A stretch of 64,000 nucleotides of DNA, from positions 1-64,000 of the forward strand of contig JAFDMF010000002.1 of the NCBI GenBank assembly GCA_019306065.1. Reading direction: 5' to 3'. The stretch is from Deltaproteobacteria bacterium (GTDB taxonomy: Bacteria > Desulfobacterota > Desulfobacteria > Desulfobacterales > JAFDMD01). How positions within the stretch are numbered: the stretch's first letter is position 1; each line of letters begins with the position of its first letter. This document shows, piece by piece, positions 56,554 to 60,684 of the stretch. Under the pieces are notes generated by a model. It saw nothing but the letters and a program-made list of their open reading frames with translations, made no database searches and was not told the origin of the DNA. Both the position numbers and the translations under genes were made by a program.

Positions 56554-57567
56554 ATGAGCGATAAAAAAGTTCTTATAATAGGCGCCGGCGTAGCAGGGCT
56601 TTCCGCGGCGGTTGCGCTTTCAAAAAATAACGTCAAAATAACAATTATAGAAAAATCCTCTTTTACCGGAGGGCATGCCGCCTCTTTTACCTGCAAAGCT
56701 GCAGAAAAATGCGTAAAATGCGGAGCCTGCATTGCTGAAGACAAATTAAAAAAAGCAAAAGCGGATACCAACATAAGAATCTTTACAAACTCCGTTATAA
56801 AAAAAATATCTGCCGCGCCCCCTTTTAATGCGGTAGTAAAAAATAAAGCCAAACAGTTTGATATTACCTGCAATGCCGTTATAATGGCTACAGGTTTTAC
56901 CCTTTTTAATCCCATATCAAAACCTTATGGATATAAAAAATTCGATAATGTAATAACCAATTTTGAACTTGAAAAAATGATTAGAGAAACAAATCAGATC
57001 CAAAAGCCTACCGACAAAAAAATTCCGAATAAAATCGCTTTTATTCAATGCGTAGGCAGCAGAGACGCTTCGCTTAATCATCTATGGTGTTCAAAAGTAT
57101 GCTGCGGTTCGGCTGTTAGAATAGCGATGCTCATAAAATCTAAAAATCCTACGACAGAAATACTATTTTTTTATATAGATATTCAAAACTTCGGCAAAGA
57201 TTTTACGTCCTATTATGAACAAGCAAAAAATAACATAAAAATGATAAGAGCTATTCCTGCGGATATTTTTCAAACCGAACAAGGTTTGCTTATTACATAT
57301 TTCGATAAAAAAATCGACAAGCCCATAGAGGAGCCGGTTGATATGGCGGTTCTTTCCGTAGGAATTACACCTAATAAATCAGAAACTGCAAAAATGCTTA
57401 ATCTTAAAATAGAAGATACAGGATTTATAAACAAACCGAACATCAATGAGGCGATAAAAAGCGGAATCTTTGCGGCAGGAACAGCATTAGGTCCTATGCA
57501 TATAGAAGAAGCTGCTGCAAGCGGAGCATCCGCCGCGTTAGGCGTTATAAAATATCTCGGCGTTTGA
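56554..57567 (+). CDS. HdrA/QmoA-like FAD protein
   Basis: 337 residues. FAD-binding 'VLIIGAGVAGLSAAVALSKN' and the HdrA cysteine set 'GGHAASFTCKAAEKCVKCGA'; later 'IAFIQCVGSRDASLNHLWCS' and 'FFYIDIQNFGKDFTSYYEQA', and the FAD-closing 'GIFAAGTALGPMHIEEAAAS'. Shorter than methanogen HdrA (~650), close to QmoA. It should accept or split electrons within a cytoplasmic or quinone-linked complex. First of three same-strand genes (HdrA-like, QmoB/MvhD-like, HdrD-like). No Shine-Dalgarno visible. Confidence 0.88.
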   Translation: MSDKKVLIIGAGVAGLSAAVALSKNNVKITIIEKSSFTGGHAASFTCKAAEKCVKCGACIAEDKLKKAKADTNIRIFTNSVIKKISAAPPFNAVVKNKAKQFDITCNAVIMATGFTLFNPISKPYGYKKFDNVITNFELEKMIRETNQIQKPTDKKIPNKIAFIQCVGSRDASLNHLWCSKVCCGSAVRIAMLIKSKNPTTEILFFYIDIQNFGKDFTSYYEQAKNNIKMIRAIPADIFQTEQGLLITYFDKKIDKPIEEPVDMAVLSVGITPNKSETAKMLNLKIEDTGFINKPNINEAIKSGIFAAGTALGPMHIEEAAASGASAALGVIKYLGV

Positions 57568-57687: not shown

Positions 57688-59199
57688 ATGAATAAATCAT
57701 CAAATAGAAAAAAAACTCTGATAATAGGAAGCGGAAAATATGCCGTAAAGGTTGCGGAAAATCTTGCGTCAGAAAACATTGAAACCGTAATAATATCTTC
57801 AAAAAAAAATAATCGACTTATTGAATCCGAAAAAATCAAAATAATATCGGAAGCCGAAATCTTTGCGTGTAAAGGGACAGTCGGAAATTTCCAACTATCT
57901 GCAAAAATAAAAGATAAAGAAAAAATTTTTGAGGCATCCGAAATAATCATTGCCGAAGATACCATCCGAAAGCCGAATTTTGCAGATTACGGATTATCGA
58001 AAACCTCTGCTATTATATCTTTATCCGAATTAAAAAATCAAAATTCTTTTGAAAAAATACAGACTGCAGTTTTTGTTACAGGTATAAAAGAAGATTCCAA
58101 CCCCATTATTTTAAAAGAAATAATGCAGGCTTCCTTATCAATGGCAAAAGACAAAGTTAAAAAAATATATATACTTGCCAAAAATCTAAAAGTTGCCGCA
58201 AACAACCTCGAAGCTTTATATAGTAAAACAAAAAAAGCCGGAGTTATATATTTTAAATTTACAGACACAACCCCAGAAATAGTCCAATCCGATAACAAAA
58301 AAAGCATAATAAACTGCACAGATGAAATATCAATGCAAAATTTTACAATAACCCCTGATATTATCATAACAGACGAAAAAATCCTGCCCTCCCAAAACAT
58401 AAAAAAAATAACTTCAATATTACGGCTTGATACAGATGAAAACGGTTTTGCGCAGGCGGATAATGTTTGTCGCTTTCCGGTATTTACAAACCGAAAAGGA
58501 ATCTTTGCCATAGGAACTTCAAGAAAAACCGCAGACGAAAAAAATAAAACCGAAGATATACATTCGGTTATTTTGGAAATCTTAAACCTGCGAAACCTTG
58601 ATATAAATGTAAATGATAAAGCCGAAATAAATACAGACAACTGCATATACTGCCTTACATGCTATCGTTTATGCAATCATAAAGCGGTAGTAACAAAACC
58701 AAGACCCCAAATAATAAAAGAAGCCTGCGAAGAATGCGGATTATGTATTGCGGAATGTCCGAAACAAGCAATACAATTTGTCAATTGTAGTAAAACATCT
58801 TCCATTATAAAAGGCGCCGCAAAAAAACCTTTTATTACAGCTTTTTGCTGCACCCGCTCCGCAGGTTCGGCTATCAAAGAGCTTTTTGCCGGCGGAACAA
58901 AACTTCCCCAACAATTAAAAAGCATAGAAGTTCCATGCGCCGGAAGCGTATCAATAGATAAAATATATTCCGAATTTAAAAAAGGGGCATCCGGAGTAAT
59001 ACTGCTTACATGCTATGAAGGAAACTGTTATTCGGAAATAGGAAACATCTACGCTAACAAAAGAGTTCAATACATATCCGAGTTTTTTAATAAAGCCGGA
59101 ATAGGAAAAGAGAAAATAGCCCTTTTTGCAATGGCTTCCAACATGTCAAGCGCGTTAATCGAAAACATAAACAAATTCATAAAAAAAATATCGGCATAA
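57688..59199 (+). CDS. QmoB-like FAD/Fe-S protein with MvhD domain
   Basis: 503 residues. An N-terminal Rossmann FAD-type part (weakened GxGxxG as 'LIIGSGKYAVKVAENLA'), two 4Fe-4S motifs ('NCIYCLTCYRLCNHKA', 'ACEECGLCIAECPKQA') near residues 318-365, then a C-terminal MvhD-type domain ('TAFCCTRSAGSAIKELF', 'SIEVPCAGSVSIDKIYSEFK', 'GVILLTCYEGNCYSEIGN'). MvhD links hydrogenase or other donors to Hdr. The N-terminal half is poorly conserved. It follows the HdrA-like gene by 120 bp and all MvhD cysteines are Cys, not Sec. Confidence 0.85.
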   Translation: MNKSSNRKKTLIIGSGKYAVKVAENLASENIETVIISSKKNNRLIESEKIKIISEAEIFACKGTVGNFQLSAKIKDKEKIFEASEIIIAEDTIRKPNFADYGLSKTSAIISLSELKNQNSFEKIQTAVFVTGIKEDSNPIILKEIMQASLSMAKDKVKKIYILAKNLKVAANNLEALYSKTKKAGVIYFKFTDTTPEIVQSDNKKSIINCTDEISMQNFTITPDIIITDEKILPSQNIKKITSILRLDTDENGFAQADNVCRFPVFTNRKGIFAIGTSRKTADEKNKTEDIHSVILEILNLRNLDINVNDKAEINTDNCIYCLTCYRLCNHKAVVTKPRPQIIKEACEECGLCIAECPKQAIQFVNCSKTSSIIKGAAKKPFITAFCCTRSAGSAIKELFAGGTKLPQQLKSIEVPCAGSVSIDKIYSEFKKGASGVILLTCYEGNCYSEIGNIYANKRVQYISEFFNKAGIGKEKIALFAMASNMSSALIENINKFIKKISA

Positions 59200-59345: not shown

Positions 59346-59391
59346 ATCCCAAGCGATAAGCAAAAAGCGGAGCAAATAAACTTGGACATCT
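59346..59391 (+). repeat. 46-bp direct repeat, upstream copy
   Basis: Matches 60639-60684 at 44 of 46 positions ('atcccaagcgataagcaaaa' ... 'caaataaacttggacatct'). The CCAAG/CTTGG ends can pair. It lies 22 bp before the HdrD-like gene. Confidence 0.9.
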
Positions 59392-59413: not shown

Positions 59414-60637
59414 ATGGGGCCGAATAATCAACCAATTGCCATATCTGAACTTAATCATCAATATTTTAATAATTACAGCCTGTTTCAACACAGATGCATT
59501 ACTTGCGGAATATGTTCCAGTGCATGTCCTGTAGCCGGAGTTGACGGCTTTGATCCGAGAAAACTTATAAGAATAATATCGTTAGGTCAAAAAGATGACG
59601 CGATAGAAACAAAGTGGAGTTGGATATGTACAATGTGCGGCAAGTGTGAAGAATTATGCCCGATGGATATACCGATTACCAAAATAGTCAAAACAATAAG
59701 AGGAATGCGCCACAGAGAAAAAGTTCCGGGCATACTCCATCAAGGATTAGAAGCCGCATTAAAAACAGGAAACAATCTCGGACTTCCAAAAGGAGATTTT
59801 GAATTTATAATTCAAGACGTAGGCGAAGAGCTTGCGGAAGAAGAAAATCTTCCAGATTTTAAAGTCTCTTTAGACAAAAAAGGGGCAAACCTTATGATGA
59901 CAATTCATAACAAACTTGTAAATACCCATACCGAAGATCTAAAACATCTATGGAAAATATTCTATGCCGCAAAAGAGGATTGGACAATACCGGCGGATAA
60001 CTGGGAAGGCACAAACTGGGGGCTTTTTACAGGCGACGACGACGCTATGAAAAAAATGACGGGGAAAATAATAGAAAACTTAAAACGCTTGGAGATAAAA
60101 AACCTTCTGTGGCCCGAATGAGGGCATGCCTACATAGCGACCAGGTTAGGTCTTGAAAAATGGTATCCCCAAGAATTAAAAAAAATCAATACATATACAG
60201 TATTCGATATTCTTTTAAAATATATAAAAGAAAAAAGAGTAAAATTAAATAAAAGTAAAAACTCTATTCCTGCAGTATATCACGACCCTTGCAATTACGG
60301 CAGGAAATCCGAAAAACTTTTCGGATATGGATATTACAAAGAGCCTCGAATAATACTTGATCATTGCTGCGAAAACTGGATTGATACATACCCTACAAAA
60401 AACCATCAGTTTTGCTGCGGAGGCGGGGGCGGAGCCCTTGTAACAGGATATAACGAAGAAAGAATATATTACGGCAGAAAAAAAATAGAGCAAATCAAAA
60501 CCTCCGGAGCTCAAATGATAATAATTCCTTGTCATAGTTGCCACGGGCAAATCAGCAGTTTAAAAAAAGAGTATTCAATGGAAAATCTACAGGTAAAATA
60601 TCTTTGGGAAATTTTTGCCGACGCTTTAGTTATATAA
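59414..60637 (+). CDS. HdrD-like Fe-S selenoprotein (two 4Fe-4S motifs and CCG domain; Sec at TGA 60119-60121)
   Basis: Read through TGA 60119-60121 this is 407 residues. HdrC-like part: 'RCITCGICSSACPVAGVDGF' and 'WICTMCGKCEELCPMDIPIT'. After 'DNWEGTNWGLFTGDDDAMKK' the text runs 'LLWPE-[TGA]-GHAYIATRLGLEKWY', then a complete CCG domain: 'YHDPCNYGR', 'DHCCENWIDTYPTKNHQFCC', 'PCHSCHGQISSL', ending TAA 60637. Relatives have Cys or Sec at the TGA position in PE(C/U)GHAY. A hairpin right after the TGA resembles a SECIS. Without readthrough the catalytic CCG part would be lost while still under obvious protein constraint. It likely exchanges electrons or thiols with the HdrA/QmoB-like neighbours. 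AAAGGA precedes ATG 59414. Confidence 0.88.
60122..60169 (+). promoter_or_regulatory. Bacterial SECIS-like hairpin directly after the UGA
   Basis: Lower stem: 60122-60130 (GGGCATGCC, one bulge) pairs with 60162-60169 (GGTATCCC). Apical stem: GACC (60139-60142) with GGTC (60149-60152), loop AGGTTA containing the GG of SelB-binding loops (E. coli fdhF has AGGTCT). The loop begins 21 nt after the UGA, within the range known for bacterial SECIS elements. Confidence 0.7.
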
Positions 60638-60638
60638 A

Positions 60639-60684
60639 ATCCCAAACGATAAGCAAAAAGCGGGGCAAATAAACTTGGACATCT
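60639..60684 (+). repeat. 46-bp direct repeat, downstream copy
   Basis: Begins one base after the stop of the HdrD-like gene and ends 41 bp before the proA ATG. Two differences from the copy at 59346-59391. Confidence 0.9.

Follow-up and report, generated by a model that had tools for sequence, protein, structure and literature searches.

Within the window, by which we mean the whole 64,000-nt stretch of DNA analyzed, a reading frame with one in-frame TGA lies directly downstream of two genes for HdrA-like flavoproteins and appears to encode a selenocysteine (Sec)-containing Fe-S protein. The locus comprises the following features:

56554 to 57567, + strand: probable upstream partner, an HdrA-like FAD protein of 337 aa (Pfam/NCBIfam matches; neighborhoods in relatives)
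57688 to 59199, + strand: probable upstream partner, an HdrA-like FAD protein with 2x[4Fe-4S] and a fused MvhD/FlpD domain (Pfam/NCBIfam matches; neighborhoods in relatives)
59414 to 60637, + strand: gene for the predicted Sec-containing HdrD-like Fe-S protein, 407 aa including Sec236
59492 to 59671, + strand: HdrC-like 2x[4Fe-4S] ferredoxin domain, residues 27 to 86 (Pfam Fer4_8/Fer4_17; PDB HdrC matches)
60119 to 60121, + strand: UGA codon predicted to be read as selenocysteine 236 (PE-U-GHAY); TGA in 74 Sec-form copies, TGC in four Cys homologues
60122 to 60169, + strand: putative SECIS including the lower stem (60122 to 60130 / 60162 to 60169; z -1.96, p_full 0.002; lower stem variable in relatives)
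60139 to 60152, + strand: apical (upper) hairpin of the putative bacterial SECIS, stem GACC/GGUC, loop AGGUUA (folding, shuffles, covariation)
60275 to 60553, + strand: CCG (cysteine-rich) domain, residues 288 to 380 (Pfam PF02754; alignment to EtfD and HdrB; fold search)

The frame runs over 407 codons from the ATG at 59414 to the TAA at 60635 to 60637, and its sole internal stop is the TGA at codon 236, in the context NLLWPE-TGA-GHAYIATRLG. Translation confirmed the coordinates of the frame and of the TGA, as well as the absence of other stops, all as originally predicted. We scanned the window for TGA codons flanked on each side by 50 or more open codons, and TGA 60119 was the only in-frame one for which both flanks exceeded 100 codons; the runner-up was at position 1959 (92/179 open codons). 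The ordinary ORF list contains only the 235-aa front part of the gene, and no listed ORF of at least 60 aa starts after the TGA at this gene. Because no such ORF begins 3' of the TGA, standard annotation would drop the CCG domain. Thus, the claim that a gene caller would report two broken halves does not apply here, as the C-terminal half would simply go missing; among relatives, the Sec gene does show up as two ORFs in, for example, L072 and L081.

We searched 116 related genomes in six frames and found ~50 orthologues with 44 to 100% identity, each carrying exactly one TGA. Scanning the contigs of GTDB genomes yielded 44 loci; wherever the record title gives so narrow a lineage, the source is a MAG of the Desulfobacterota (former Deltaproteobacteria). 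TGA occupied the codon-236 column in 74 of the 78 aligned proteins, a number that counts copies and not independent loci because several loci are present in both collections (68 copies are distinct in nucleotide sequence downstream of the TGA). The remaining four, two HmcF proteins of the same genome and the homologues in L091 and L110, had TGC. This bore out two parts of the original prediction, namely, that UGA stands in for the cysteine of a conserved PECGHAY motif and that related Desulfobacterota proteins carry Sec at this site, since the alignment of the read-through product placed either Sec or Cys in this column in every homologue, with TGA in all Sec-form copies. In a 39-sequence alignment, C236, G237, and the CCG cysteines C293, C334, C335, C373, and C376 were invariant, while H238 was nearly so. 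In the Cys-form relatives at L091:5977-7143 and L110:3152-4942, PDCGGGS replaces PEUGHAY, so that Sec and the following His are altered together.

The comparison with a congener gave NG86 dN/dS values of ~0.05/0.41 after the TGA and 0.07/0.41 before it. The ratio is as low downstream as upstream, which indicates that purifying selection is acting on the post-TGA part as well. A recent nonsense mutation or sequencing error in a decaying pseudogene might be suspected because any one MAG may contain an error and selB was not found in this assembly. This reading has a negligible probability and is ruled out by the conservation of the TGA column and of the downstream part: across many independently assembled genomes, 74 copies share TGA at this position, and dN/dS is low after it.

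Published rules for bacterial SECIS elements describe a hairpin just 3' of the UGA, with an apical loop ~16 to 37 nt after the UGA and a G in loop position 1 or 2. At this locus, the hairpin starts 17 nt past the UGA, and the 54-nt segment counted from the TGA has a folding energy of -15.9 kcal/mol (z -1.96). The upper hairpin was seen in every Sec copy, with the loop starting 21 to 23 nt after the UGA and a G in loop position 1 or 2 in 74/74; it thus conforms to the published rule in the Sec copies and is weak or absent in the Cys forms. In place of bSECISearch, we scored the element by family-wide folding and by synonymous-codon shuffles encoding the same peptide, and the outcome was positive: the upper hairpin energy had a median p of 0.017 versus the shuffles, with 55/74 copies below 0.05, as compared to p values of 0.16 to 0.46 for the four Cys homologues. 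Every distinct sequence formed four to five stem pairs in one of two registers. With Ser encoded by TCN and Gly by GGT, Arg AGG occurred together with TCT (14) and Arg CGG with TCG (9), while the crossed pairs never occurred. Judged from this covariation, the hairpin is maintained by compensatory, partly double-synonymous changes that go beyond coding. The two-tier hairpin with a GG apical loop that had been described at this site was therefore upheld for its upper tier, which is family-wide, but not for its lower tier as a family feature, which is strong mainly in the sequence of this locus (p 0.002 versus synonymous shuffles) and variable among relatives. The Rfam SECIS models, which cover few SECIS types, gave no match, including in a permissive scan.

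Subsequently, we evaluated the Sec machinery of the genome, a MAG of 2.0 Mb that is 93% complete. It contains selA and tRNA-Sec (selC) with a UCA anticodon. The selD gene (L018, G000:C47:82510-83433) has an in-frame TGA of its own and probably encodes a Sec-containing selenophosphate synthetase. In contrast, selB was not found in the contigs of this MAG with the TIGR00475 model and the SelB of a congener as queries, and EF-Tu was missing too, with no EF-Tu-sized frame found in the assembly. Matches of 34 aa to the start of the EF-Tu/SelB GTPase domain lie at two contig ends (G000:C1:13254-13316 and G000:C16:70616-70678) and probably represent repeated tuf genes that broke the assembly. Such breaks would explain the missing EF-Tu and warn against reading much into the missing selB. 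Both same-genus genomes carry full-length selB, with confirmed SelB winged-helix domains. Thus, of the sel genes expected for a Sec-decoding host, selA, selC, and selD were found, while selB is missing from the contigs assembled for this MAG (93% complete) yet present in both congeners. The genome also encodes dsrA with a dsrB-like neighbor, and the host is therefore probably a dissimilatory sulfate reducer.

The unassembled selB could be taken to mean that the UGA is read otherwise than by Sec insertion, either through general recoding to Trp or Gly or through readthrough with a standard residue. We regard this as very improbable, as every relative has one TGA per gene, the homologues have Cys in this column, a SECIS-like hairpin covaries downstream, and selA, selC, and selD are present. 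Together, the conserved TGA, the purifying selection, the covarying hairpin, and the sel genes argue for a selenoprotein gene as opposed to a broken gene.

Next, we compared the protein with known families. Pfam detected a [4Fe-4S] dicluster domain and a CCG domain, and C293, C334, C335, C373, and C376 are expected from the alignment to hold a noncubane [4Fe-4S] cluster. The original prediction of an intact CCG domain thus stood, whereas HCCENW proved to lie outside the CCG signature, the five residues listed being the invariant cluster cysteines. There is no Cys between C82 and residue 236, and only the C-terminal CCG motif is complete. The label HdrD-like is consequently apt for the architecture but not as an identity, since HdrD of the HdrDE heterodisulfide reductase needs two complete five-Cys CCG motifs and this protein has one cluster-binding CCG domain. 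TmcB, HmcF, and DsrK were the best NCBIfam matches and share the domain order, yet the protein scored far below their equivalog cut-offs (172/735, 171/750, and 147/400, respectively), and we therefore rejected its membership in all three families; its gene, moreover, is not beside membrane-complex genes. Two HmcF genes above the NCBIfam cut-off are present in the same genome (L052 and L053 on G000:C18 and C20); they are of the Cys form TECGHA and have the same E-C-G-H motif, with Cys where the Sec protein has Sec. Among plasmid records, we found no close relative of the Sec protein.

Fe-S oxidoreductase (GlpC) proteins with Sec were predicted by Zhang et al. in 2006 (PMC1794560), and a 2026 review tabulates an Fe-S oxidoreductase-like (GlpC) selenoprotein family with a UGH motif, PTHR43551 (PMC13188914); in this literature, the family has been treated as predicted since 2006 and is biochemically uncharacterized. 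The protein described here has Sec in the U-G-H motif of an Fe-S oxidoreductase, as that family is defined in PMC13188914, and shares with it the occurrence in Deltaproteobacteria, often beside hdrA/frhD. The operon described for the family is glpC-hdrA-frhD-frhG-frhA, whereas here the probable partners are two HdrA-like genes, one of them with a fused MvhD, and the adjacent genes include no hydrogenase. A selenoprotein has likewise been reported from Desulfobacterium autotrophicum HRM2, namely, HdrD4 (PMC2702500); going by its description alone, it resembles our protein as a soluble HdrD-like protein with Sec from a sulfate reducer rich in HdrA/MvhD loci. Thus, the protein probably falls within or close to the already published UGH group of Fe-S oxidoreductase-like (GlpC) selenoproteins, as part of a PE-Sec-GHAY subfamily. 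While Sec in a GlpC-type family was already known, our analysis adds the PE-U-GHAY subfamily with its HdrA pair and the reasoning on the cluster site.

Members of the PE-Sec-GHAY subfamily usually follow directly after an HdrA-like and HdrA/MvhD-like gene pair, and in most close relatives it is the HdrA/MvhD gene that immediately precedes the Sec gene. The partnership is not universal, because more distant Sec relatives adjoin other genes (acyl-CoA dehydrogenase-like, metVF-like).

The AlphaFold model of the protein was confident (pLDDT 91, pTM 0.89). In the fold search, the best PDB match was EtfD of Mycobacterium smegmatis (9ojn; E 1.7e-14), and the next-ranking hits were LutA (part of a LutA-LutB model) and chains of HdrB. 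The profile alignment, at ~16% identity, placed C236-G-H238 on C581-P-H583 of EtfD and the CCG cysteines on the ligands of its D2 cluster, so that the CCG ligands and a His beside the noncubane cluster are common to both proteins. In EtfD, Cys581 ligates the linear [3Fe-4S] cluster D1, while His583 ligates the noncubane [4Fe-4S] cluster D2 and makes it non-catalytic (PMC13083937). EtfD differs in being membrane-bound and in having the linear D1 cluster, whose ligands are absent from the Sec protein, and it carries Cys581 where Sec is found here. Because the other linear-cluster ligands are missing, Sec236 would be the lone chalcogen near the noncubane cluster, and we infer that it acts as a redox-active selenol or as an extra selenolate ligand beside this cluster and not as an ordinary cluster ligand.

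Alternatively, Sec236 might be a plain structural or redox-tuning (seleno)ligand of an Fe-S cluster in a protein that conducts electrons like a wire, a role proposed for EtfD, and performs no disulfide chemistry. This is a serious contender, although we lean against it. The roles of Cys581 as a D1 ligand and of His583 in rendering D2 non-catalytic (PMC13083937) speak for it, as does the near invariance of H238 here, while the loss of the other D1 ligands, with no Cys between C82 and residue 236, argues against a plain ligand. Moreover, selenocysteine is usually retained where a redox-active thiol site performs catalysis.

Our preferred reading, to which we assign a probability of about 0.88, is that 59414 to 60637 encodes one soluble Fe-S selenoprotein with the UGA read as Sec via a SECIS, which probably works in a complex with the HdrA pair and may hold Sec236 beside the noncubane cluster. 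According to this selenoprotein reading, UGA 60119 would be decoded with the help of the hairpin immediately downstream and the Sec machinery of the cell. In the product, a two-cluster ferredoxin domain of the HdrC type would be joined to one degenerate and one intact CCG domain, as in the TmcB/HmcF/DsrK/EtfD group, and the protein would most likely associate in a complex with the two flavoproteins encoded just upstream, one HdrA-like and the other HdrA/MvhD-like. Electrons could then pass between the flavin/[4Fe-4S] chain of the HdrA partners and the noncubane [4Fe-4S] cluster, the site at which a substrate or partner of the thiol/disulfide type may react; candidates include a heterodisulfide-like or DsrC-like substrate or a protein electron acceptor. 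Sec236, at the position of EtfD Cys581 and two residues from the His capping the noncubane cluster, would provide the reactive selenol or selenolate ligand.

More speculatively, the PE-Sec-GHAY branch might have lost the first CCG cluster and converted its last ligand into a selenol, which together with the noncubane [4Fe-4S] cluster would form a selenium-assisted disulfide (or trisulfide) reducing center fed by the HdrA-HdrA/MvhD pair. We consider this proposal possible but doubtful; if true, the selenol and the noncubane cluster would constitute a new kind of noncubane-cluster active site. The anatomy, with Sec two residues from the cluster His, the first-cluster ligands lost, and HdrA/MvhD partners, makes a role in the energy metabolism of sulfate reducers testable. 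At the level of the gene, the analysis, starting from the raw sequence, supports a selenoprotein that would be truncated in ordinary annotation, with the Sec site held across most of the family while the membrane-complex cousins (HmcF) use Cys.

The same genome encodes a second Sec-containing HdrD-like protein (TE-U-GHV) that is 34 to 36% identical to the PE-U-GHAY protein. Its gene is part of a second selenoprotein cluster, at L051 (G000:C27:47737-51870), which comprises hdrA, mvhD with an in-frame TGA (FCCEYUGYSAAD), an HdrD-like gene with TE-U-GH, and metV- and metF-like genes, the latter two names being assigned by eye. Last, a 46-nt direct repeat, 96% identical between its copies, is found in the window at 59346 to 59391, just before the Sec gene, and at 60639 to 60684, just before the next gene. 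When up to three mismatches are allowed, its 37-nt core occurs 12 times in the genome, as compared to 0 for the reversed control, and one frame of the 46-nt repeat reads PSDKQKAEQINLDI.
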